A stretch of 54,303 nt of DNA from Cenarchaeum sp. SB0675_bin_21 (GTDB lineage: Archaea; Thermoproteota; Nitrososphaeria; Nitrososphaerales; Nitrosopumilaceae). The DNA lies in assembly GCA_009843815.1 (NCBI GenBank), contig VYCS01000046.1, positions 1 to 54,303 on the forward strand, read 5' to 3'. The notes below the pieces were generated by a model that made no database searches, had not been told where the DNA came from, and was given only the letters and a program-made list of their open reading frames with translations. The translations under genes and the position numbers were made by a program. Shown here one piece after another: positions 8,676 through 49,627 of this stretch. Position 1 is the first letter of the stretch. Every line of letters begins with the position of its first letter.

Positions 8676-9080
8676 ATGGATTGCGTATTTTGTAGTATAG
8701 TGAATGGCACAAGAAAGGCCTATCCACTATATGATGACGACCATCACATGGCATTTTTGGATAGGTATCCACTGTCGTGGGGCCATACACTGATAATACC
8801 AAAGACGCACTACACAACACTACCTGATATGGATGCTGAATCAATTGGCAGTCTATTCTCACTGGTCTCTGTAATTGCACCAGCAGTACTCAAGTCCACT
8901 GACACAACAGCATTTAACGTTGCGCAGAACAACGGCTCTGCAGCCAAACAATTGGTACCTCACGTACATGTTCATATAATACCACGACATCCGGACAGAC
9001 CAATACAATGGAATTCGCGCCTTGTCATATCAGATGAAAAGTTCTGCAAACTAGCAGACAAGATCAGGCGCCTTCTGTAG
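8676..9080 (+). CDS. HIT family nucleotide hydrolase/transferase
   Basis: A 134-residue histidine-triad protein. It has the N-terminal CVFCSIVNG Zn-type motif typical of HIT hydrolases, the mid-protein GHTLIIPKTHY segment, and the catalytic HVHVHIIPR triad near residue 100. HIT proteins hydrolyse nucleoside phosphoramidates or dinucleoside polyphosphates. It lies 28 nt downstream of the secreted-protein gene and its last 17 bases overlap the convergent trpA. Confidence 0.92.
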   Translation: MDCVFCSIVNGTRKAYPLYDDDHHMAFLDRYPLSWGHTLIIPKTHYTTLPDMDAESIGSLFSLVSVIAPAVLKSTDTTAFNVAQNNGSAAKQLVPHVHVHIIPRHPDRPIQWNSRLVISDEKFCKLADKIRRLL

Positions 9081-28409: not shown

Positions 28410-28592
28410 ATGTCGACATATGAGGAGTGGCTTGATGAGTTAATAGCTGACCGTGATGAGACCGGAGTGCCCATCACTAGACGCGAATACTATGAAAAGT
28501 TCTTCAATAACATAGATACAAAGCGGGTGTATGAGCAGGATGTTGTGGTAACCTCGCGTCTAAAGGAGCGCGGAGTTATAGTTGACAGCTAG
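28410..28592 (+). CDS. Conserved small hypothetical protein
   Basis: A 60-residue acidic, probably helical cytoplasmic protein (MSTYEEWLDELIADRDETGV..) without cysteines or membrane segments. It has its own TATA box and its stop overlaps that of the convergent metH by four bases. I do not recognise a named family. Confidence 0.6.
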   Translation: MSTYEEWLDELIADRDETGVPITRREYYEKFFNNIDTKRVYEQDVVVTSRLKERGVIVDS

Positions 28593-31033
28593 CCACTCCA
28601 CTTTGCGTCGGGGTGGTGTACAACTATGGCCGCCGTTGAAAGGTCAGGTGTCATGTGACCTGTTGTAGTGAGTTTCATACCGATTCTCTCTGGTTTTAAT
28701 ATGTCCCACATCAGCCTGTGTTGTGTGACGTCTGGACAGTCCGGATATCCCAAACTGTACCGGAGACATCCTTTATCAAGGCCCATTGTACGACGTATCA
28801 GTCTGTTGATCCAACTGGCTATGGCCTCCACGAACTCTGTGACAAAACCGTTCAAATAGAATGAGTCTGTGGTCCTTCCAGCCTCGTCCCACTCGGTGAC
28901 CATGCGGTTGGCGGCCTCTCCAGCGGTGCACGCCTGAAATGCCACCACATCATTCTCCCCAAAGTAGTCTGCGATACATAGGTGTCTGGACTTGAGTGAT
29001 CTGGGAAAGTCGAATGTTACTGTACCCGAATCCCCCTCCACATTTAGACTCTCACCATCCGAGTGGCATCTAAAGAAGCCATATATTGCGCGCGGCTCAA
29101 GTATGCCTCGCACCTCCTCGGCCATCTTTTGTAAGAGTTTTTGGTGTTCTGCCTTCCATTTACCGCCTGATCGACCTTGCACGCCCCAGCCCCTGAGAAT
29201 GAGAGCCTTTACGTCCAACTCTTTCAGGACCTCATCATAGTCTATCTCTGATATGATGGTCGTTCCGTACTGCACATTGGGAGGAGTCACTGGTTTTATA
29301 CCACTCCGGGGTATGGGTGTAGTTCTGACTATACGGGGTGCCTGCTTCTCTTTTAGTCCACTTCGCCACTCTGCGAGTAATGCGTCTCTATCGCCCATTA
29401 TCTTATCCATAGTCTTTAGTCCAGCGAACATATCCTTGCAGTAAAAGACACCCGGCTCGTAGACGCCCCCATCGGTCGCTATCCTGTTTATGTAATTGAG
29501 GTTTATGGCGGCACCGCCACACAGTACTGGTATATCCATGCTGTTTGTACGCGCATAATCTACAAAGTGCTTCATCTCGCGGGATGTATTCACAAGAAGC
29601 GCGGACAGTCCTACCGCATCGGCATTCACCTCTTTTATTTTGTCTAGGAATGTCTGCATGGGCACCTGCTTGCCCAGGTCATGTACTGTATATCCGTTGT
29701 TCTGAAATATGGTCTTTACCAGATTCTTTCCTATGTCATGGACATCTCCATAGACGGTCCCTAGCACCAGCTTCCCCTTGCTGACACCCTCCTTCTTTAC
29801 CAGATATTTTTCTACCTCTGAGACTGCAGCCTTCATGCACTCGGCCGACTGAAGCACAAATGGCAGTATGATCTCACCTGACCCAAACTTGTCGCCTACA
29901 GTCTTCATAGCTGGGAGTAGCGAGTCGTTCAGTACGGATATGGCAGCATCATGAGTCTCTGTTGGACTCATGGCTATCGATGAGCCATCTTTTGACATTA
30001 TGGGACTCTCTATGTTGTCTGCTATGGCCAGAACCACATCAACTTCTATGTCTTCCCGTATGCGATTGATTATTCTCTTATTGATACGCTTACTGGCCGG
30101 CCATTGTGCGTCTATGACTGGTGCTGTTGTGGCTCTGCCAACTTGATCTGACGCAACACAGGTACTCAACAATGATGCTAGCGCATCTGGCTTTTTGTTG
30201 AATATCAAATCTTCTGCTGAATCTTTATGGTCAGACTTTAGCATGTGATATGGAATAATATCTTTGGGGTTTAGTATCACACAGTCTAGTCCTGCCTGCA
30301 CGGCATGATACAGAAATACAGAGTTGATCACCTTACGGGGGTATGGGTCAAGACCAAAACTGATGTTGCTTAAACCAACCACAGTATATGAATTGGGGAA
30401 TCGTTCTTTGATCAATCTTATACCCTGTATGGTTTGTATGCCCGCATCTAGGAACTCCTCCTGGCCTGTAGCCAATGTAAATATGAGTGGATCAAATATG
30501 TACTGGCTCTCTTTTATGCCGTACTGTGAGCCTCTCTCTACAATCAACTCGGCCGTCTGCACCTTCTGCTTTGCGGTCTTGGCCATCCCAGCAGGCCCTA
30601 TGCACATTGCTATGGCTGGCACACCATACTGAGCCATTATGGGTGCCATACCAGCAAACCTGCTACCATCACCCTCTAGATTTATCGAGTTTATGATGGG
30701 CTTGCCTGGTATCTGTCTGATGGCCGACTCTGCAACTGATGGACTGGTTGTGTCTATTACAAGGGGCGCCTCCACCTCCAAACTGAGCCTCTTTACCAGA
30801 CGTGTCATGAACTCATTCTCATTGTCCTTCTCGGTGACGGCCACAGAGACATCTAAACAATGAGCGCCGTCCTCGACCTGGTGTCGTGCTATGTCTACTA
30901 GGCCATCGTAGTCGTCGGCCAGTATCAACTTTTTGGCCTTACGTGACCCCTGAGCGTTGACCCTCTCACCGATTATCATGGGTGGCGGGGACTGCTTAAC
31001 GCTAACCACCTTGAGAGCCGAGCTTACATCCAA
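28589..31033 (-). CDS. metH: Cobalamin-dependent methionine synthase lacking the homocysteine domain
   Basis: 814 residues. Domain order: pterin/methyl-THF-binding barrel (about 15-270; IIGERVNAQGSRKAKK, IDTTSPSV), cap (about 285-410), B12-binding domain with the DxHxxG ligand loop DVHDIGKN (430-437, His432) and VGLSALLVNTS, and the AdoMet activation domain (about 590-814; CRYSLGYPDCPD). The N-terminal zinc homocysteine-binding domain of standard MetH is missing, so a separate methyltransferase subunit must complete it. The start is a TTG, supported by GGTGATG a few bases upstream. No B12 riboswitch is seen in 31034-31335, where I find no gene. Confidence 0.93.
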   Translation of the reverse strand: MDVSSALKVVSVKQSPPPMIIGERVNAQGSRKAKKLILADDYDGLVDIARHQVEDGAHCLDVSVAVTEKDNENEFMTRLVKRLSLEVEAPLVIDTTSPSVAESAIRQIPGKPIINSINLEGDGSRFAGMAPIMAQYGVPAIAMCIGPAGMAKTAKQKVQTAELIVERGSQYGIKESQYIFDPLIFTLATGQEEFLDAGIQTIQGIRLIKERFPNSYTVVGLSNISFGLDPYPRKVINSVFLYHAVQAGLDCVILNPKDIIPYHMLKSDHKDSAEDLIFNKKPDALASLLSTCVASDQVGRATTAPVIDAQWPASKRINKRIINRIREDIEVDVVLAIADNIESPIMSKDGSSIAMSPTETHDAAISVLNDSLLPAMKTVGDKFGSGEIILPFVLQSAECMKAAVSEVEKYLVKKEGVSKGKLVLGTVYGDVHDIGKNLVKTIFQNNGYTVHDLGKQVPMQTFLDKIKEVNADAVGLSALLVNTSREMKHFVDYARTNSMDIPVLCGGAAINLNYINRIATDGGVYEPGVFYCKDMFAGLKTMDKIMGDRDALLAEWRSGLKEKQAPRIVRTTPIPRSGIKPVTPPNVQYGTTIISEIDYDEVLKELDVKALILRGWGVQGRSGGKWKAEHQKLLQKMAEEVRGILEPRAIYGFFRCHSDGESLNVEGDSGTVTFDFPRSLKSRHLCIADYFGENDVVAFQACTAGEAANRMVTEWDEAGRTTDSFYLNGFVTEFVEAIASWINRLIRRTMGLDKGCLRYSLGYPDCPDVTQHRLMWDILKPERIGMKLTTTGHMTPDLSTAAIVVHHPDAKWSG

Positions 31034-39713: not shown

Positions 39714-40109
39714 ATGTCCAAATCTGACCTGTTGGCTAGGAGATACACCAAGGAGCACGAATGGGTGGACACAGCAGACGACGGCATAATCGTGGGAATT
39801 ACGGAATTTGCACAGGATCAGCTCGGAGATGTGGTCTCTGTTGAGCTGCCCGAAGTCGGTATCTCTTACAGGCATAATGATGCCATAGCAATAATAGACT
39901 CCGTAAAGACATCAACGGATGTATACAGTCCGGTGGATGGGCGGGTTACACATGTCAACGAGAATCTGCTATCACAGCCCGAACTGATCAACAAGTCGCC
40001 ATACCAGGACGGGTGGATTGTAAAGATGGCGCCGGAGAATTCGGCCCAGCTGGAATCTTTGCTCACTCGGGATCAGTACGACGAATCGGTTGGGAACGCT
40101 GAGAAATAA
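39714..40109 (+). CDS. gcvH: Glycine cleavage system H protein
   Basis: 131-residue lipoyl carrier that shuttles the aminomethyl group among P, T and L proteins. KEHEWVD and GITEFAQDQLGDVVSVELPEVG are present, with the lipoylated Lys in IDSVKTSTDVYSP. First gene of the cluster; gcvPA starts at the next base after the stop. Confidence 0.97.
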   Translation: MSKSDLLARRYTKEHEWVDTADDGIIVGITEFAQDQLGDVVSVELPEVGISYRHNDAIAIIDSVKTSTDVYSPVDGRVTHVNENLLSQPELINKSPYQDGWIVKMAPENSAQLESLLTRDQYDESVGNAEK

Positions 40110-41366
40110 ATGAACTACATTCCGCACACAGGTAAGCACATATCAAAGATGCTCGCCGCAATAGACTGCCGGACGGTTGATGAGCTTGTACCGGATCAGG
40201 TTCCCCGGGCAGCAAGGCTGGACCTCGGCGAACCAATGAGCGAGATGGATGTGGTATCATATATCGAGTCGCTTGCAGCAAAGAACACACAGACCAAGTG
40301 CTTTGCCGGGGGCGGCTCATACGACCACTACATCCCCTCTGCCATAAGTCACATAGTTCTAAGGGGGGAATTTCTCACCGCATACACCCCGTATCAGGCA
40401 GAGGCAAGCCAAGGGATGCTGCAGGCTCTATATGAATACCAATCATACATATGCCTGCTCACCGGAATGGATGTCTCCAACGCGTCACTGTATGACGGAG
40501 CCTCGGCCCTGGCAGAAGCCGTACTCTTGGCCCACTCATACACAAAAAGAAGAGGAGTTTTCGTGGATGTGGGATTGAATCCAGCATACCTTCAGGTTCT
40601 CAGGACATACTGTGAGGGAGCCGACATCTTCATCTCAGATACCATAAACGACGATGTGGCATGCGTCATACAACAGGTGCCTGCCTTTGATGGTTCTATA
40701 AAGGATCCTACACACATGGCAGAGAAGGCTCACCGGAATGGATCTCTCTTCATAAGCTGCATATCGGATCCCACATCGCTGGCCATCATGCGTCCCCCCG
40801 GAGAGGCAGGGGCGGACATGGTAACGGGCGAGGGGCAGTCGTTCGGAATACCCAAAAGCTTTGGGGGCCCGTGTCTGGGGTTCATGGCAGTCAGGAGTGC
40901 GCTTACCAAGAAACTACCCGGAAGGATAGTGGGCGCGACTCAAGACGGGTCCGGCAGGCGGGGATTTGTCCTTACGCTACAGGCAAGAGAGCAGTTCATC
41001 AGGCGGGAACGCGCCACCAGCAACATAACGACAAACCAGACGCTCTTGGCGCTGTCTGCAACCATATACCTGGCCCTGCTGGGAAGGACCGGCCTTCGGT
41101 CGGTTGCCCATACCTCGTACCGTCGGGCGCACCGGCTGCAGCAGATGCTTCACACAAGGGGATTCCGAACCATAACGCCGGGTCCATTCTACAACGAGTT
41201 TCTTGTAGAGACACCAAGGTCCGCAACGGACATACTAGAACGCCTACAGCGGTGCGGCATACTGGGCGGAATTGCAGTGGACGACCACCAGCTGCTTGTA
41301 TGCTGCACAGAAAAGAATACCGTACCAGACATGGAGACGTATGCGAGGGGTGTATCCATGCAATGA
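40110..41366 (+). CDS. gcvPA: Glycine dehydrogenase (decarboxylating) subunit 1
   Basis: 418 residues, somewhat short for the family. N-terminal half of the split P protein: CFAGGGSYDHYIPSAISHIV, YTPYQAEASQGMLQALYEYQ, NASLYDGASALAEAV and GEGQSFGIPKSFGGPCLGF. Works with GcvPB as an alpha2beta2 PLP enzyme. Stop overlaps gcvPB as ATGA. Confidence 0.96.
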   Translation: MNYIPHTGKHISKMLAAIDCRTVDELVPDQVPRAARLDLGEPMSEMDVVSYIESLAAKNTQTKCFAGGGSYDHYIPSAISHIVLRGEFLTAYTPYQAEASQGMLQALYEYQSYICLLTGMDVSNASLYDGASALAEAVLLAHSYTKRRGVFVDVGLNPAYLQVLRTYCEGADIFISDTINDDVACVIQQVPAFDGSIKDPTHMAEKAHRNGSLFISCISDPTSLAIMRPPGEAGADMVTGEGQSFGIPKSFGGPCLGFMAVRSALTKKLPGRIVGATQDGSGRRGFVLTLQAREQFIRRERATSNITTNQTLLALSATIYLALLGRTGLRSVAHTSYRRAHRLQQMLHTRGFRTITPGPFYNEFLVETPRSATDILERLQRCGILGGIAVDDHQLLVCCTEKNTVPDMETYARGVSMQ

Positions 41367-42808
41367 TTGCGCAAGACCAGAACACACCTGAGAATCTTAT
41401 CTTTGATTACGACCAAGCAAACACCGGACACATCCGCACAGATGAAGATGGCATAAAAGACCAGTTTCCCGAACGGGACTACTTGCCCCTGCCGGATGTA
41501 AGCGAGATGCAGGTGATCCGCCACTATACGGAGCTCTCCAGAAAAAACTATGGAATAGACACCGGCATATACCCGCTGGGCTCGTGTACCATGAAGTACA
41601 ACCCGCGCGTAAACGAGGATCTGGCCAGGCTTCCCGGATTCGCAGGCATGCATCCCCACGCCCCACCGCCCCACGCGCAGGGCGCGCTGGAGGTCATGTG
41701 GGATCTGCAGGAGGCCCTAAAGGAGATCACAGGTATGGATGCATTCAGCCTGCAGCCTGCCGCCGGCTCCCAGGGGGAGCTGCTGGGGGTAATGATCGCC
41801 AAGAGGTACTTTGCAGAGATGGGCGAGAGGCGCACCCGAATAATAATTCCGGACTCGGCGCACGGAACGAATCCCGCCACTGCCGCCACATGCCGGTTCC
41901 AGACAGTAACGGTACGTAGCGACGAGCGCGGTAACATGGATTTAGGTGGGTTCCGGAAGGCCATAGGGGACGACGTGGCCGTGGTGATGATCACAAACCC
42001 CAACACACTGGGATTCTACGAGGAGCACCTTCAGGAGATAACTGAACTATCAAGGAAGCACGGAACGCTTCTGTACTGCGATGGGGCAAACATGAACGCG
42101 ATGCTGGGAATCAGCAAGCCTGCGGAGCAGGGATTTGACATGATGCACTTGAACCTGCACAAGACCTTCTCCACCCCGCACGGTGGCGGCGGTCCCGGTG
42201 GCGGCGCCTTGGGTGTCAGATCATTCCTAGAGGAGTACCTGCCAGTGCCGAGGATTGTGAGGCATGATAGTGATTCCACGTTTGATCTAGACTATAACTA
42301 CGATAAGAGCATCGGCAGGGTCCACTCGTTTTATGGAAACTTTGGAATCATGCTCAGGGCCTTGGCGTATATCAAATCGTGGGGATCCGACATTGTGAAT
42401 GTCTCGGAGGCCGCCCTCCTGAATGCAAACTACCTTCTGGGTCTCATAAGGGATGTATTTGATGTGCCGTATGACCGGCGGTGCGCCCACGAGTTTGTGG
42501 TGTCCACAAGGCGGTTCGGCGAGAAGAGCGCCCTGAACATGGCAAAAAGAATGATCGACTACGGCTTCCACCCACCTACCGTATACTTTCCGCTTATAGT
42601 AAAGGAGGCTCTAATGATAGAGCCCACTGAGACGGAGAGCAAGGAGACGCTGGACCGGCTTGCCGGTGCGCTCGCTGCGATAGCGCGTGAGGCGGAGCAG
42701 AATCCGGACATGCTCGATGGCGCCCCTCACACCACGGCCACCAGACGGTTGGACGAGGTGATGGCCGCGCGGCATCTTGACCTGCGCTGGAGACCACCGG
42801 AGGAATAA
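41363..42808 (+). CDS. gcvPB: Glycine dehydrogenase (decarboxylating) subunit 2
   Basis: 481 residues from the ATG at 41363 (MIAQDQNTPENLIFDY); the long frame upstream is only the third frame of gcvPA. PLP-binding Lys is in MHLNLHKTFSTPHGGGGPG; other motifs are YPLGSCTMKYNPRVNE, PDSAHGTNPATAA and YCDGANMNAMLG. Decarboxylates glycine and passes the aminomethyl group to GcvH. Confidence 0.97.
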   Translation: MIAQDQNTPENLIFDYDQANTGHIRTDEDGIKDQFPERDYLPLPDVSEMQVIRHYTELSRKNYGIDTGIYPLGSCTMKYNPRVNEDLARLPGFAGMHPHAPPPHAQGALEVMWDLQEALKEITGMDAFSLQPAAGSQGELLGVMIAKRYFAEMGERRTRIIIPDSAHGTNPATAATCRFQTVTVRSDERGNMDLGGFRKAIGDDVAVVMITNPNTLGFYEEHLQEITELSRKHGTLLYCDGANMNAMLGISKPAEQGFDMMHLNLHKTFSTPHGGGGPGGGALGVRSFLEEYLPVPRIVRHDSDSTFDLDYNYDKSIGRVHSFYGNFGIMLRALAYIKSWGSDIVNVSEAALLNANYLLGLIRDVFDVPYDRRCAHEFVVSTRRFGEKSALNMAKRMIDYGFHPPTVYFPLIVKEALMIEPTETESKETLDRLAGALAAIAREAEQNPDMLDGAPHTTATRRLDEVMAARHLDLRWRPPEE

Positions 42809-42811
42809 CGC

Positions 42812-43117
42812 ATGGACCCTGACCGGGACAGCACGGTCGTAACCGTACATGTGGCAAAGCTGGAGAAGATGGTGAGAATAAGGCTGGACTATTCCCGCCA
42901 ATCACGTACGATAAGGTACATAAGGATCACAGGAGACTTTTTCATGCATCCGGAGGATTCGATAGATGGCCTAGAGGAGGGGCTACTGGGGACAGAGCTG
43001 GAAAGGGATGCCCTGAGGCAGAGAATCTCCTCGGCCCTTGCCGGTACCAGATGCTTTGGGTTTGATGCCGAATCGCTGACGGGGGCAATACTGGACGCGG
43101 GAGGCGATGCGCCATAA
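42812..43117 (+). CDS. lplB: Lipoate-protein ligase accessory (C-terminal) subunit
   Basis: 101 residues: VTVHVAKLEKMVRIRLDYS.. then ITGDFFMHPEDSIDGLEEGLLG, which is the LplA C-terminal/LplB fold found as a separate subunit in archaeal bipartite lipoate ligases. It is needed for lipoate activation by the catalytic LplA encoded next. Three bases after gcvPB; its TAA overlaps the probable start of lplA. Confidence 0.85.
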   Translation: MDPDRDSTVVTVHVAKLEKMVRIRLDYSRQSRTIRYIRITGDFFMHPEDSIDGLEEGLLGTELERDALRQRISSALAGTRCFGFDAESLTGAILDAGGDAP

Positions 43118-43848
43118 GGTTTGAGCGCATCAAGATACTGGAGACCGGCTTGGGCGCGGGCCCGTGGAACATGGCCGTGGATGAGTGTCTCCTGTATAGG
43201 TATGGCGCCGCCGGGGACACTGTTTTACGGTTATACGGCTGGTCCCGGCCCTGCATAACGATAGGCTACTTTCAGGGAGTGCGCGAAGAGGTCAATCTGG
43301 AGCGGTGCGAGCACAGCCAGGTGGATGTCGTAAGGCGAATCACCGGCGGGGGTGCGGTGTTTCACGACATGGAGGTCACATACTCGCTGGTCACCAAGAG
43401 GTTTCATTCAGATATAATGGCATCATACCGGAGCATATGCGACATGGTGGTATTGGGGCTGGGCCACATGGGCTTGGACGCGTCATTCTCTCCCCTCAAC
43501 GATGTCACCGTAAATGGGAAGAAGGTCTGCGGCAACGCCCAGACAAGAAAGGGTGGTGCTCTGCTGCAGCACGGTACCATACTACTGGATGTGGATGTGG
43601 AAAAGATGTTCTCGCTGCTCAACGTGCCCACTGCAAAGATCCGGGACAAGGCCATTGCGGGCGTGAAGGAGAGGGTGGCGGGCATTGGCCGTACATTCGA
43701 ACAGACCGTTGATGCACTAAAGAGGGGGGCGCAGGATGCGTTTGGCTGTGGGCTGGACACCATGTCGCTGTCCGGAAAGGACATTGCAGAATGCAGGAGG
43801 ATAATGGCTGCAAGATACTCCCAAAGGTCGTGGACGCACAAAAGATGA
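43114..43848 (+). CDS. lplA: Lipoate-protein ligase A, catalytic subunit (bipartite type)
   Basis: Attaches lipoate or octanoate to the lysine of GcvH. RRITGGGAVFHD, the central VNGKKVCGNAQTRKGGALLQHGTIL (catalytic Lys) and TKIRDKAIAGVKERV-type C-terminal elements are present. The first standard start codon in frame is a TTG at 43150, which would delete the N-terminal strand. Upstream residues RFERIKILETGLGAGPWNMA match the family and lead back to an ATA at 43114, overlapping the lplB TAA as ATAA. I therefore place the start there, with reservation. Confidence 0.85.
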   Translation: MRFERIKILETGLGAGPWNMAVDECLLYRYGAAGDTVLRLYGWSRPCITIGYFQGVREEVNLERCEHSQVDVVRRITGGGAVFHDMEVTYSLVTKRFHSDIMASYRSICDMVVLGLGHMGLDASFSPLNDVTVNGKKVCGNAQTRKGGALLQHGTILLDVDVEKMFSLLNVPTAKIRDKAIAGVKERVAGIGRTFEQTVDALKRGAQDAFGCGLDTMSLSGKDIAECRRIMAARYSQRSWTHKR

Positions 43849-44221
43849 TATGGAAGCATAGGTTGCCCTACCCGGCATTGTCGGAAGCCAAAACCCGCAG
43901 GTGCTCCCGCCACGCGGGGGACCATATACGTGATTAAAAATTATCACTGAAACATTGGGGATGGCAAATTTGCCTTAACTTTATGGATAAACTGGAACAT
44001 GCCTGTATGGGCAGATCCCCCGTGCAGTCGGCAGTATGGGCTTGGATGACACACTTGGGTGCGGCGAGGGTTGGCTATACATTAGGTGGCGCAGTGTCTG
44101 ATTCTTGGGGATGTAAAGTTACACCAATCTGACACAACTTTGATCGTCAGATGGATCACTTTGCATTTCCAGCATCCTACAGAAGAGCGATATTTATTGT
44201 GTATAGTACATACTCCCTACC
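43849..44221. other. Intergenic region before lpd
   Basis: No gene recognised. An imperfect inverted repeat with 9 of 10 paired bases lies at 44094-44103 and 44126-44135. A TATA-like ATATTTATT (about 44189-44197) is about 28 nt before the lpd ATG. Confidence 0.4.
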
Positions 44222-45541
44222 ATGTATGATGCCATAGTTGTGGGAGCCGGGCCCGGGGGCTATGCATGCGCCATAAGCCTGGCCAAAGGCGGTGCCAATG
44301 TGTGCATAATAGAACGGAACGGCCTTGGCGGCACCTGCACCCAGAGGGGATGCATACCCACAAAGTATCTTCATGCGATGGGCGACTTGGCCCGGAGAGT
44401 GAGGGCCTCAAAGAGGCACGGCATAGGGGACGGCACCATAAGCATCAATTATGACATGCTGAGCGCCGGCATGAAGAGTACAATATCCAGGATTGCTTCG
44501 GGGATGCGACTCCAGCTCCGACAGCACAATGTGGACACAATATCCGGAGAGGCCAGCGTGATATCGCCAGGTATTGTAGAGGTTGACGGAGCAAGATACG
44601 AGACCCGCAATGTGGTGCTGGCGACAGGGAGCATGCCCAAGACTATAGATTTGCCGGGCTATGAGACGCTTACCACCGACTCTGTGTTTGAGTTGCAGAG
44701 TCTACCCGAATCCATACTGGTCATAGGAGGTGGGTATAGCGGATGCGAGTTTGCATCTATATTGAATGCCTTGGGCTGCAGGGTGTGGCTGGCCGAAGCG
44801 CAAGGGTCCCTACTGCCGGGGCAACCAAAGATTGTAGGAGATACAGTAGAAAAGTACATGAAGCTGGACGGCATATCGGTATTCACCGGCGCCACGGCAA
44901 ACGTACATGACGGCCGCATTGTTGTGGGGAGAGAAGAGATGGACCCCGAGGTCGTACTAGCCAGTGTGGGACGATACCCGGCCTTGGATGCAGACCGGCT
45001 CGATATGCTGGGTGTCAAATATGGCGACAGTGGGATAGTCGTGGATGCAAGAATGCAGACCAGCGCAGACAGTATATACGCGGTGGGCGATGTCACTGGG
45101 GTGTACGAGCTGGCGCATGTGGCCACGCGCCAGGGGGAGGTCGCAGCAGATAACATACTGGGCCGGCACACCCGTATAGACTACACCACAATACCCTACT
45201 GTGTGTTCACGTATCCTGAGGTGGCAATGGTGGGAAGGCTAGATGGTTCGGCGGCTACAGTGCAGATGGTCGCCAACGCAAAGGCAAACTGCATGGGGCA
45301 GACCCGTGGATTCGCTAGTGTGTATACCGGAGACGGTACACTGCAGGGGGCACTTATTGTGGGCGCGCATGCCAGCGAGATCATAGGTGAGGCGGCGTTG
45401 GCCATAAGGCTGGGACTCAGACCCCAGGATGTGGTCAATACCATACATGCACACCCCACCCTGCCGGAAGCCCTTGCCGACGCGGCAGCAGCCGCAGCGC
45501 GCATGCAGGAGGCCAAAAAAGCATGTCCGGGGCCAGAATAG
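44222..45541 (+). CDS. lpd: Dihydrolipoamide dehydrogenase (L protein)
   Basis: 439 residues. FAD motif GAGPGGYACAI, redox disulfide GGTCTQRGCIPTK, NAD motif GGGYSGCEFA, second FAD motif IYAVGDVTGV and the C-terminal catalytic IHAHPTLPEALADA (His-x-x-x-x-Glu). Reoxidises the dihydrolipoyl arm of GcvH with NAD+. Overlaps the following LLM gene by 19 bases. Confidence 0.96.
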   Translation: MYDAIVVGAGPGGYACAISLAKGGANVCIIERNGLGGTCTQRGCIPTKYLHAMGDLARRVRASKRHGIGDGTISINYDMLSAGMKSTISRIASGMRLQLRQHNVDTISGEASVISPGIVEVDGARYETRNVVLATGSMPKTIDLPGYETLTTDSVFELQSLPESILVIGGGYSGCEFASILNALGCRVWLAEAQGSLLPGQPKIVGDTVEKYMKLDGISVFTGATANVHDGRIVVGREEMDPEVVLASVGRYPALDADRLDMLGVKYGDSGIVVDARMQTSADSIYAVGDVTGVYELAHVATRQGEVAADNILGRHTRIDYTTIPYCVFTYPEVAMVGRLDGSAATVQMVANAKANCMGQTRGFASVYTGDGTLQGALIVGAHASEIIGEAALAIRLGLRPQDVVNTIHAHPTLPEALADAAAAAARMQEAKKACPGPE

Positions 45542-46449
45542 GGATAGAGCTGGGCATACGGGCCCCCGCAAAGGCCGTGAGGAGGGCGGCCGAACTGGCA
45601 GGATCTTATGCGGAATACTTTCTAGTTCCAGAGACCCACCCACGCATAATGGGTGTCGACGCGCTGGACATGATACTGGAGGTATCGGCAGGCCTCCCAA
45701 GTCGAGCACGCATGGGCACCGGTGTAATCAACGTGTTTTCTCGCACCCGTGAAGACATGTTATATCAGGCGCTCCGCATCCACCGTACCGTAGGAGAGCG
45801 GTTCATACTGGGAATTGGTACAAGCGCGCCGGTAGTCGTAGAGGGCATGTGGAAGATGGCATTTCGCAGGCCCGTATCACGTCTTGTGTCATATACCAAG
45901 AGCCTCCGCGTACATGGGTATGCGGGGCCGATATATTGGGCCGCAGTGGGCGAGAGGGTGCTGCAGCTCGCCATACAGAATGCCGACGGCATCATCTTCT
46001 TTCTCAAGCCGCGCTCACATATGCCAAAGCACATCAGGGTAATCCGGGAGAGGGCGTCACCGGAATTTGGTATAATGTCCATCATTCCCGTATCCGTGAG
46101 TAGCAGTACGGCGCATGATGCCCGCATGGATGTAAACATGACCGTTGCCGGATATGTGGGCGCAAACGGCTTTTATGGCGAGCCTTTGGCCGCGGCGGGA
46201 TTTGACGTTGCCGGCATACGGGACGCATACAGCAGAGAGGGGGTGCGGGGCGGGGCACGCATGGTATGCGACAGCATGCTGGACGAAGTGCAGGCGGTAT
46301 GGGGCACACCTGGGTCCTGCGCCCGTGTGATACGCGGCATGGCCCGAAAGTCGGAGGCCGACGTACTGGTTCTGGGCTTTGATCTCCCGCCCGACAGGTA
46401 TGATGACGCATTCTTTGAGGATTTGGGCACACTGCTGCGGGGGCTGTAG
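45523..46449 (+). CDS. Luciferase-like (LLM) F420/flavin-dependent oxidoreductase
   Basis: 308 residues in the bacterial-luciferase TIM-barrel family: AELAGSYAEYFLVPETHP, GTGVINVFSRTREDML, GERFILGIGTSAP, and PIYWAAVGERVLQLAIQNADGIIF. Archaeal members usually use F420, e.g. methylene-tetrahydromethanopterin reductase relatives, but the substrate cannot be read from sequence. It is embedded between lpd and the condensing-enzyme gene in a same-strand run, so a role in C1 or acyl metabolism linked to the lipoylation cluster is possible (inference). Confidence 0.8.
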   Translation: MSGARIGIELGIRAPAKAVRRAAELAGSYAEYFLVPETHPRIMGVDALDMILEVSAGLPSRARMGTGVINVFSRTREDMLYQALRIHRTVGERFILGIGTSAPVVVEGMWKMAFRRPVSRLVSYTKSLRVHGYAGPIYWAAVGERVLQLAIQNADGIIFFLKPRSHMPKHIRVIRERASPEFGIMSIIPVSVSSSTAHDARMDVNMTVAGYVGANGFYGEPLAAAGFDVAGIRDAYSREGVRGGARMVCDSMLDEVQAVWGTPGSCARVIRGMARKSEADVLVLGFDLPPDRYDDAFFEDLGTLLRGL

Positions 46450-46453
46450 GCGC

Positions 46454-47530
46454 ATGGTGTGGCTCTCGGGCATTTCGGTAGTCAAGGCCCCATTCCGCTA
46501 TTCCATATCGGAGATTGTGGATGACATGTTGCGGGACAAGATGGACAGGGAGGCAAGGGAGTATGCCAAGAGTCAGCTGGGCATTGAGTATGTTTACAAG
46601 TCATACGATCTATCAAAGGTGGACTTTGGGAGCGACCAGTACGTAGAGCCCCATATTGCGATGGACGAGCTGTACCGGCAGACCGCCAGCGTATCCATGG
46701 GTGGAATGGACCGGTCCGGCATAGGAATGCTGATCACTGTCAACGACAACCCTCAATATTTGGATCCGGCTCCCACCGCGGGTTTGGTGCCGCAGCTCTC
46801 CCTGCGTCAGGATATAAGGGCGCAGAACCTGCAGGGGCTTGCGTGCTCGGCGCTTCCGGAGTCACTTCTGAACTCGGCTGGGCATTTTGCCATGGGTGGC
46901 AAAGGAGATGTGTTGCTAATCATGGGGTCCGGCTATACGGAGTGGTTTTTGGACAGGATAAAGCAGATCAAGAACATCACACGAAAGAGCCGGGGAGACT
47001 TTTACAGCATGATATATTTTCTAATATTCAGCGATGCCGCCGCATCAGCCATAATATCGCCAGAACCGGATGGGGCGCAGGTGCGCATAGACCCACGCCA
47101 CGTGGTTGTGACAAGGAGTGCAAGGCCAGTCCCGGCGGCCACGCTAAAGATGTCACCGGACAATAGATGCAGGGTGATATTTGACATGAGCCTGGACCCG
47201 CGGGGCCTACGGGACGACATTGTGCGTTTGGCCGCCAAGAGCCTCACACGGCTGCAGAGGGTACTCCCAGAAGGAATAGATGTATTTGGCATACACACTG
47301 CGGGAAAAAAATTTGTGGACTCTGTAGCCGAAGGCTGCAGTCTGGATCCCTCAAAGATCCGCATGAGCCATGACATAATGAGCAGCACGGGCAACATGGG
47401 CGCCCTGAGCTCCATACAATTTGTAGATGAATGTATTCGGCAGGATGCAATATACAAGGGCAACATGGGATGCTTCATAGACTACGGCTGGGAGGGTGCG
47501 GGCGCCTTTGCCTTTGAGAGAATATCATGA
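46454..47530 (+). CDS. Type III polyketide synthase / KAS III-like condensing enzyme
   Basis: 358 residues from the ATG at 46454, four bases after the LLM stop. Thiolase-superfamily fold with the Cys-His-Asn triad: Cys131 in LQGLACSALPESLL, His281 in GIHTAGKKFVD and Asn314 in SSTGNMGALSSI. The His-Asn spacing (33) and GNMG.. context resemble chalcone/stilbene-synthase-like enzymes as much as FabH. It could condense acyl-CoA with malonyl-CoA. Archaea lack a standard fatty-acid synthase, so its location among lipoylation genes is suggestive. The N-terminus lacks the usual FabH substrate loop. Confidence 0.75.
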   Translation: MVWLSGISVVKAPFRYSISEIVDDMLRDKMDREAREYAKSQLGIEYVYKSYDLSKVDFGSDQYVEPHIAMDELYRQTASVSMGGMDRSGIGMLITVNDNPQYLDPAPTAGLVPQLSLRQDIRAQNLQGLACSALPESLLNSAGHFAMGGKGDVLLIMGSGYTEWFLDRIKQIKNITRKSRGDFYSMIYFLIFSDAAASAIISPEPDGAQVRIDPRHVVVTRSARPVPAATLKMSPDNRCRVIFDMSLDPRGLRDDIVRLAAKSLTRLQRVLPEGIDVFGIHTAGKKFVDSVAEGCSLDPSKIRMSHDIMSSTGNMGALSSIQFVDECIRQDAIYKGNMGCFIDYGWEGAGAFAFERIS

Positions 47531-47619
47531 TGTGTAGTACTCCAAGGTGAGATCAATATTTTTCTCAAACTAGTCTAGCGCCATACCGCTCCAGAAATAC
47601 TGAATGTCACTATAGGATA

Positions 47620-48516
47620 CTATGTGGTGGGGCGCATGCCCCGGCGGCCCGATACGATATCTGCTATGTCCGAGGCCCGAAAGGAGCTCCGCACAAAGGG
47701 CCCGGCCTTCACATGCAGGAACCCCAAATCACACAGCATGTGTTTTAGCTGATCAAACCTCTCAGGATGTATGTACTCTTTGACCGGAAGGTGTCGTGTT
47801 GAAGGCTGCATGTACTGGCCCAGCGTGACAAAGTCCACCATAGATTCCCGGAGGTCTGTGGCCGCCTCAAGTATCTCGTCTGTGGACTCGCCCAGACCCA
47901 ACATCATGGATGACTTTGTAAATATTCCAGGATGCCTCTCTTTGGTGTGGCGCAGGACCTGCAGCGACTGGGAGTAGCCAGCCCGACGGTCCCGGACCTG
48001 CGGGCTGAGCCGGCGCACGGTCTCTATGTTGTGGCCCACCACATGGGGTCCTGCATCGGCCACCGCATCTATCAGGGTATGGTAGCCTGCAAAATCCGGA
48101 ATCAGAGACTCCACTATGGTGTCGGGACACCGGTGCCGTATGTGCCGTATGGTCTCTGCAAAATGCCCCGCCCCGCCGTCGGGAAGATCGTCCCTGCACA
48201 CCGATGTTATTACAGCGTACCGAAGGCCCAAATCTAGTATTGCCTCTGCCACGGAGCCCGGTTCCCGCACATCCAAAGCTCCGGGCCTGCCTGTATTCAC
48301 GTCACAGAATCCGCAACCCCGGGTGCAGATGTCGCCCATTATCATTATGGTGGCAGTGCCGGCGCCCCAGCACTCGGCTACATTCGGGCATGATGCCTCC
48401 TGGCATACTGTATGCAGGCTGTGCCGCTTGATGGTTCTTCGTACGTTGGCGTATGCCTCGCCTGAGGGTATCTTAGTCTTCAGCCAGCGCGGACGTATGA
48501 GAGCAGGGCCGTCCAT
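47620..48516 (-). CDS. lipA: Lipoyl synthase
   Basis: 298-residue radical-SAM enzyme inserting two sulfurs into protein-bound octanoyl groups. The auxiliary 4Fe-4S cluster ligands are in CQEASCPNVAECW, the radical-SAM triad is in CTRGCGFCDV, and the C-terminal RSSFRASD supplies the Ser ligand. Divergent from gcvT with 49 nt between start codons and an apparently shared TATA box. Confidence 0.97.
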   Translation of the reverse strand: MDGPALIRPRWLKTKIPSGEAYANVRRTIKRHSLHTVCQEASCPNVAECWGAGTATIMIMGDICTRGCGFCDVNTGRPGALDVREPGSVAEAILDLGLRYAVITSVCRDDLPDGGAGHFAETIRHIRHRCPDTIVESLIPDFAGYHTLIDAVADAGPHVVGHNIETVRRLSPQVRDRRAGYSQSLQVLRHTKERHPGIFTKSSMMLGLGESTDEILEAATDLRESMVDFVTLGQYMQPSTRHLPVKEYIHPERFDQLKHMLCDLGFLHVKAGPFVRSSFRASDIADIVSGRRGMRPTT

Positions 48517-48533
48517 ACCAAAAACTTAATCAA

Positions 48534-48546
48534 GATATATTTATAA
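48534..48546. promoter_or_regulatory. Shared bidirectional TATA element for lipA and gcvT
   Basis: GATATATTTATAA is nearly symmetric and its centre (about 48540) is about 24 nt from the lipA ATG on one side and about 26 nt from the gcvT ATG on the other, the distance expected for two leaderless transcripts. Confidence 0.6.
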
Positions 48547-48565
48547 TGGTAACGCTATCTGTGCC

Positions 48566-49627
48566 ATGAGAACTGCATTCTACGAGCGACACCTCGGGCT
48601 GGGTGCAAAGATTGTGGACTTTTACGGTTGGGATATGCCCCTTCAATACTCGGGTATAATTCAGGAACACAAGGGTGTCCGAGAAAGTGCGGGCCTCTTT
48701 GATGTGTCACACATGGGACGTTTCAAGATACGCGGTCCGGGTGCTCAAGATCTGATACAGCGTGTAATAACAAACGACATACGTCAAGTGGCAGACGGCC
48801 AATCACTGTACTCGCCGATGTGCAACCACAGCGGCGGGATAGTGGACGATGTCATAGTAAGTCGGCTGGGTCCCGGCGATTTTGTCATGGTGGTTAACGC
48901 GTCCAACAGGACAAAGGACATGGACTGGATAATGGCCGGTGCAGATATGAGCCGGTGCGAGATAAAAGACGTTACGGCCGAGACATCCCTGCTGGCCCTG
49001 CAAGGCCCGCAGTCGTCCCGCATACTTGAGAAGATGGGTGCAGAGATGGGAGGCGTGAGGCCCTTCCGGCTTGTGCACATGGACCTGGACGGCGCCCCCT
49101 GTATAATATCCCGGACAGGATATACCGGCGAGGACGGCTTTGAGCTGTTCTTTGATGGCGGGCACGACCACCTCTGGGATGTGATATTGGAGAGCGGCGC
49201 CGCATTCGGCATAATGCCTGCAGGTCTGGGGGCGCGCGACACCCTGCGACTGGAGGCGGGGATGATGCTATATGGAAATGATATAGACGAGGACACCACC
49301 CCCTTGGAGGCGCCCTTGGGGTGGACAGTAAAGATGGAGACTGATTTTATCGGCAGAGACGTACTGCTCTCAAGGAAGATAACAAAGAAGCTGCGAGGCT
49401 TTATGGTCGTTGATTCTGGACGCGTAGCAAGAAAAGGTGATACCATATATGACAACGAGAAGCCGGTGGGCACGGTCACCTCCGGCGGCTTCTCTCCCAC
49501 GCTGGGCAGGCCCATCGGATACTGCTATGTTTTGCCGGAGTATAAGGTGGGGGCCCACGTTGCAGTGGGCATTGGCAAAAAGAGATACAAGGCACAACTG
49601 GCATCCACCCGATTCTACAAGCGATAG
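48566..49627 (+). CDS. gcvT: Glycine cleavage system T protein (aminomethyltransferase)
   Basis: 353 residues. Transfers the methylene group from aminomethyl-GcvH to a tetrahydrofolate/tetrahydromethanopterin-type carrier, releasing ammonia. YGWDMPLQYSGIIQEHKGVRESAGLFDVSHMG, NDIRQVADGQSLYSPMCN, SRTGYTGEDGFELFF and LGARDTLRLEAGMMLYGNDI are all present. Starts directly after the shared TATA element. Confidence 0.97.
   Translation: MRTAFYERHLGLGAKIVDFYGWDMPLQYSGIIQEHKGVRESAGLFDVSHMGRFKIRGPGAQDLIQRVITNDIRQVADGQSLYSPMCNHSGGIVDDVIVSRLGPGDFVMVVNASNRTKDMDWIMAGADMSRCEIKDVTAETSLLALQGPQSSRILEKMGAEMGGVRPFRLVHMDLDGAPCIISRTGYTGEDGFELFFDGGHDHLWDVILESGAAFGIMPAGLGARDTLRLEAGMMLYGNDIDEDTTPLEAPLGWTVKMETDFIGRDVLLSRKITKKLRGFMVVDSGRVARKGDTIYDNEKPVGTVTSGGFSPTLGRPIGYCYVLPEYKVGAHVAVGIGKKRYKAQLASTRFYKR

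Follow-up and report, generated by a model that had tools for sequence, protein, structure and literature searches.

Archaea assemble lipoate with LplA–LplB together with LipA or LipS1/LipS2, and LplAB needs free octanoate (PMC10332631). The archaeal source of this octanoate is unresolved. According to a survey from 2023, acyl carrier protein (ACP) is generally absent, and CoA or CoM are put forward as mere possibilities (PMC10332631). For another cofactor, the acyl chain can come from BioZ, a FabH-like 3-ketoacyl-ACP synthase that is encoded in bio clusters and makes pimeloyl-ACP (PMC7645780). Glycine cleavage and lipoate genes have already been reported from some sponge and deep-sea Thaumarchaeota (PMC7848895, PMC7265257). 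The locus analysed here has lplA, lplB and lipA in common with the described archaeal lipoate assembly (PMC10332631). It additionally carries a linked condensing enzyme (KS) and luciferase-like reductase (LLM), which are not described for archaeal lipoate assembly in the literature found. A search for a link between an LLM–condensing enzyme pair and lipoate returned nothing relevant, and the association of this pair with glycine cleavage and lipoate genes is absent from the literature found.

The gcv/lip cluster and its KS–LLM pair

The window, i.e. the whole stretch of 54,303 nucleotides that was analysed, derives from a sponge-associated ammonia-oxidizing archaeon with a genome of 1.61 Mb in 48 contigs (99.6% complete). 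Among named relatives, a Cenarchaeum MAG is closest, with 93% identity for KS. The cluster has the order gcvH-gcvPA-gcvPB-lplB-lplA-lpd-LLM-KS, lipA (opposite strand), gcvT:

39714–40109, plus strand: gcvH, likely lipoyl acceptor (TIGR00527 141 bits, cut-off 116)
40110–41366, plus strand: gcvPA (PRK00451 505 bits, cut-off 364)
41363–42808, plus strand: gcvPB (PRK04366 659 bits, cut-off 441; start codon set at 41363)
42812–43117, plus strand: lplB, lipoate-protein ligase small subunit (PF10437 above cut-off; NF053749 46.7 bits, cut-off 65)
43150–43848, plus strand: lplA, lipoate-protein ligase large subunit (PF21948 170 bits, cut-off 27)
44222–45541, plus strand: lpd, dihydrolipoyl dehydrogenase (TIGR01350 366.8 bits, cut-off 408.8)
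45523–46449, plus strand: LLM, luciferase-like, probably F420-dependent oxidoreductase (308 aa; PF00296 66.1 bits, cut-off 27.9)
46454–47530, plus strand: KS, FabH/type III PKS-like condensing enzyme (358 aa, from the ATG at 46454 to the stop at 47530; Cys131-His281-Asn314)
47620–48516, minus strand: lipA, lipoyl synthase, convergent with KS (TIGR00510 386 bits, cut-off 310)
48566–49627, plus strand: gcvT (TIGR00528 353 bits, cut-off 236)

The sequence-only reading had placed KS and LLM between lpd and lipA/gcvT. This was borne out, with the neighbours now assigned by profile. The genes lpd and LLM share 19 bp, and only 4 bp separate LLM from KS; therefore, lpd, LLM and KS look co-transcribed.

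The catalytic triad Cys131-His281-Asn314, also named in that reading, was identical in 15 of 15 aligned KS homologues. Matches to family models were weak. PF08541 gave 25.8 bits on the KS protein, just below its cut-off of 26.6, and the same match scored 28.4 bits, just above it, in a six-frame search. The DpgA model reached 26.5 bits (cut-off 425) and the type III polyketide synthase (PKS) model PF02797 reached 19.6 bits (cut-off 27); PF08392 was likewise sub-threshold. PF08545 (FabH/KAS III) was not matched by the window KS protein, which passed none of the curated full-family cut-offs, and the fabH models of NCBIfam stayed far below cut-off in relatives. By profile, KS matched FabH (4e-18), plant 3-ketoacyl-CoA synthase (KCS; 3.5e-16) and type III PKS (1e-15) about equally well. 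The AlphaFold model of KS (pLDDT 88.8) has a thiolase fold, and 50 of its 50 best PDB fold matches were type III PKS (TM 0.75–0.81), a fold class that uses CoA. Because of the fold prediction and the triad, the assignment as a condensing enzyme is safe despite the weak family matches. As judged from model and alignment, KS belongs to an uncharacterised subfamily of decarboxylating condensing enzymes, and its sequence does not reveal the product.

Type III PKS and plant KCS thus have the closest fold, CoA substrates and the triad in common with KS. Chalcone synthase has a C-terminal loop with the motif GFGPG; at this position KS has DYGWEG or DFGWG. FabH/KAS III shares the triad, the thiolase fold and the best profile E value with KS, but differs with respect to PF08541 and PF08545 and in the lack of ACP in the KS host genome, which is described below. 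In one MAG an in-frame TAG is located near the KS C-terminus (L035:9992-11101 = G247:C12), reflecting a sequencing error or a decaying copy.

The best solved relative of LLM by profile was the F420-dependent Mer (1e-27), followed by a match at 6e-6. Fold neighbours of LLM were KvPepI and Mer, both F420 enzymes, and the TIM-barrel fold was matched. It is likely from these profile and model comparisons that LLM uses F420. A MetH-like methionine synthase of 814 aa is encoded on the minus strand at 28589–31033, 14 kb from LLM (TIGR02082 535 bits, cut-off 1011).

Distribution and history of the pair

KS orthologues, defined by E below 1e-150, were found in 13 of 250 Nitrosopumilaceae genomes. Exactly those 13 carry lplA and 12 of them carry lipA; the one without lipA (G021) is a fragmented assembly, in which the KS contig ends within KS. 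LLM orthologues occurred in the same genomes as KS (201 relatives searched). For the co-occurrence of KS, Fisher's test gave p < 1e-18, a statistic that takes no account of phylogeny or linkage. In five genera (g1, g3, g6, g12, g17) block-bearing and block-less genomes occur side by side, and the genes agree in every listed genome. The block is also present in free-living marine and groundwater archaea. Thus, the co-occurrence with lipoylation genes that the sequence-only reading had proposed as a check was confirmed. The opposite outcome, a pair located mainly away from these genes, was not observed, as all intact orthologous KS/LLM loci adjoin lip/gcv genes. Part of the co-occurrence is linkage, because genes that adjoin each other are acquired and lost jointly whatever their function, and by itself it does not prove a shared function of the pair and the lip genes.

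In one genome (G300) the pair is seemingly located away from lip genes (L034). We read this locus as an assembly chimera. Homology breaks sharply at position 9013 of the contig, on which KS still adjoins rpl12. The rest of the block is found on another contig of this genome (L044), itself ending in an unrelated mutS-like frame. On both contigs homology breaks inside the block, and both are probably chimeras.

Where non-Cenarchaeum loci of family f1 have enough flank, the ten-gene block adjoins rpl10 and/or a convergent rpl12, and this was the case in six genera (L020-L025, L033, L045). The constant site favours an old insertion that was lost many times over repeated transfer. Comparison of L022, L045, L027, L028 and the window revealed three block orders: the usual f1 order, that of the window (39714–49627) and that of family f3. 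In the window lineage a rearrangement has brought lipA-gcvT to the far end of the block, from which the pair has not separated. In f3, LLM-KS is located at the opposite end, next to lipA. Identity between f3 and f1 was 33–37% for KS and LLM, compared with 45–73% for the other eight block proteins. In the KS tree f3 falls outside f1 (support 95/99.8), and the nested alternative had a p-AU of 0.044. In the lipA tree, f1 monophyly was not rejected (p-AU 0.109). A conflict between the lipA and KS histories is moderately supported by these trees. The f1 and f3 cassette LLMs group together in a single clade, separate from a second LLM (LLM2, see below). The pair would either have diverged much faster than the block or have joined it separately. 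The divergence of KS and LLM in f3 indicates that the histories differ and that a single frozen operon does not account for the association. We do not claim that all gene orders are circular permutations of one ring, since this divergence makes separate recruitment or replacement equally possible.

In the other lipA-bearing families of the order no KS orthologue was found; only G130 has a distant homologue, located elsewhere. Within these families, no lplA was found near lipA. In four of the five that were read, lipB lies next to lipA or in its PDH operon, lipB being recognised by sequence and not by profile search. As to the carrier protein, PF00550 had no match in the 99.6% complete genome of the window, and the same search was positive in 11 of 14 control genomes. 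Because no ACP was detected, KS would not have the malonyl-ACP extender typical of FabH/KAS III.

Distant KS homologues have different surroundings. That of G130 (L029:7686-10287) directly follows putative thiG and thiE. Those of families f18, f40 and f50 (L086-L093) adjoin methylmalonyl-CoA-mutase-like, thiolase and DUF35 genes, not lip genes. In G071 and G207 (L030, L047) the homologue is found beside a FabG-like reductase, and the G071 locus looks like a surface-sugar locus.

Proposed octanoate supply and competing explanations

As the leading explanation, with a probability of about 0.5, we propose that KS and LLM are a dedicated module for acyl-CoA elongation that works without ACP and provides octanoate for LplAB and LipA on GcvH. 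The genes, folds, triad, conservation and co-occurrence are observed, and from these we infer the catalytic steps, their order, the substrates, the chain length and the cofactor. KS would load an acyl-CoA onto Cys131 and extend the chain with malonyl-CoA by decarboxylative condensation, assisted by His281/Asn314. Thaumarchaeal enzymes of the 3HP/4HB cycle act on C4 acyl-CoAs (PMC8287830). The 3-hydroxybutyryl-CoA dehydrogenase and the crotonyl-CoA hydratase of this cycle may therefore be recruited for ketoreduction and dehydration. With F420H2, LLM would then reduce the enoyl-CoA or, alternatively, the 3-keto group. After release of the chain as octanoate, LplA–LplB would use ATP to ligate it to GcvH, and sulfur would be inserted into the GcvH-bound octanoyl group by LipA.

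An acyl-chain route feeding LplA and LipA had been suggested in the sequence-only reading, and it is now partly supported. Among 250 genomes, KS and lplA occur in exactly the same ones, including those of the five genera of mixed state, and the pair remains adjacent to the block through rearrangement, with a different placement and divergence in f3. The genome has no detectable ACP and KS belongs to a CoA-using fold class. Furthermore, the lipA families without the pair use lipB where read and have no lplA near lipA. The octanoate role itself is still a candidate. Several points count against elongation. No ketoreductase, dehydratase, thioesterase or acyl-CoA synthetase was found in the ten-gene block, and the literature cited here names no LLM enzyme that acts as an enoyl-CoA reductase. 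KS lies equally far from several families that make different products, and scavenged octanoate or lipoate would serve LplAB too.

The position of KS between FabH, plant KCS and type III PKS in the profiles, and its type III PKS fold, would also fit another acyl-CoA or polyketide-like product. The pair might then make a type III PKS-like metabolite or shorten scavenged fatty acids, useful alongside glycine cleavage and not as a lipoyl precursor. Distant KS homologues near mutase-like/thiolase/DUF35, thiamine or sugar loci point in the same direction. This does not account for KS orthologues never occurring without lplA, nor for the pair rejoining the block in f3 at another position and with a different history, and we regard such a product as possible but doubtful. 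It is unlikely that LLM is a Mer-like methylene-tetrahydropterin reductase, converting the methylene group from glycine cleavage to methyl, with a separate role for KS. Mer (PMC11094777) is by far the best solved relative, its catalytic Glu6 aligns with LLM E9 in every f1 sequence reaching that column, and the MetH-like protein is encoded nearby. However, the pterin-site residues Asp96 and Asn178 are replaced by Ala and Phe, respectively, in all 14 LLM sequences, the Glu6 position is Ala or Val in f3, and the NCBIfam Mer models score only 31 on LLM against a cut-off of 276. The replaced pterin-site residues disfavour LLM as a true Mer. The strict partnership with KS would also have no explanation, and the same reductase would be required in genomes that lack glycine cleavage.

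Free octanoate or lipoate, the substrates of LplAB-type ligases (PMC10332631), could be scavenged from the sponge or from seawater, with the pair as a linked passenger of the glycine-cleavage block. The one rpl10/rpl12 site in six genera is what a single inherited unit would give. A passenger should decay or drop out in some genomes, but KS is kept in 13 of 13 genomes with the triad intact where readable, and the free-living archaea mentioned above keep the block as well. We therefore consider scavenging with a passenger pair unlikely. Apart from KS, the genome has no PF08541 match, which would be in line with a function of KS as the HMG-CoA synthase for isoprenoid lipids. This was rejected, as 237 of the 250 family genomes have no KS orthologue, yet all must make isoprenoid lipids.

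A second LLM operon and comparison with BioZ

The genome of the window also encodes LLM2, after which come genes for a thiolase and a DUF35-like protein (contig C20, L002:332-2376). This operon was found in the sampled ammonia-oxidizing families f1, f3 and f8 (L096-L107). In f3 and f8, no more than about 10 kb separates it from bioD, bioA, bioB and bioF. Co-occurrence of LLM2 with bioB was not clean, some genomes having only one of them at the thresholds used. Pimelate synthesis in these archaea is unresolved, although a thiolase close to the N. gargensis bio genes has already been named (PMC6138646). By analogy, the two arrangements suggest that modules of an LLM and a thiolase-fold enzyme make cofactor acyl chains. 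The LLM2-thiolase-DUF35 operon may encode the missing pimelate step in the biotin synthesis of archaea, and the parallel thus bears on an equally open question. We only tentatively extend this to ammonia-oxidizing archaea in general, which may build ACP-free cofactor chains via pairs of an F420-type LLM and a thiolase-superfamily enzyme: octanoate by LLM-KS and pimelate by LLM2-thiolase-DUF35. If true, cofactor assembly would rely on these paired CoA/F420 modules in place of bacterial fatty acid synthesis.

Octanoate synthesis by KS and LLM is favoured by this parallel together with the BioZ precedent. With two named enzymes that track lplA in 250 genomes, the octanoate question becomes a two-gene test. 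BioZ (PMC7645780) and KS are both Cys-His-Asn condensing enzymes within a cofactor cluster, BioZ being dedicated to the acyl chain of its cluster and KS putatively so. BioZ uses malonyl-ACP, shares about 35% identity with FabH and occurs in bacteria with fatty acid synthesis. In contrast, KS has diverged much further, would have to work without ACP and is encoded beside lipoate genes and an LLM reductase.
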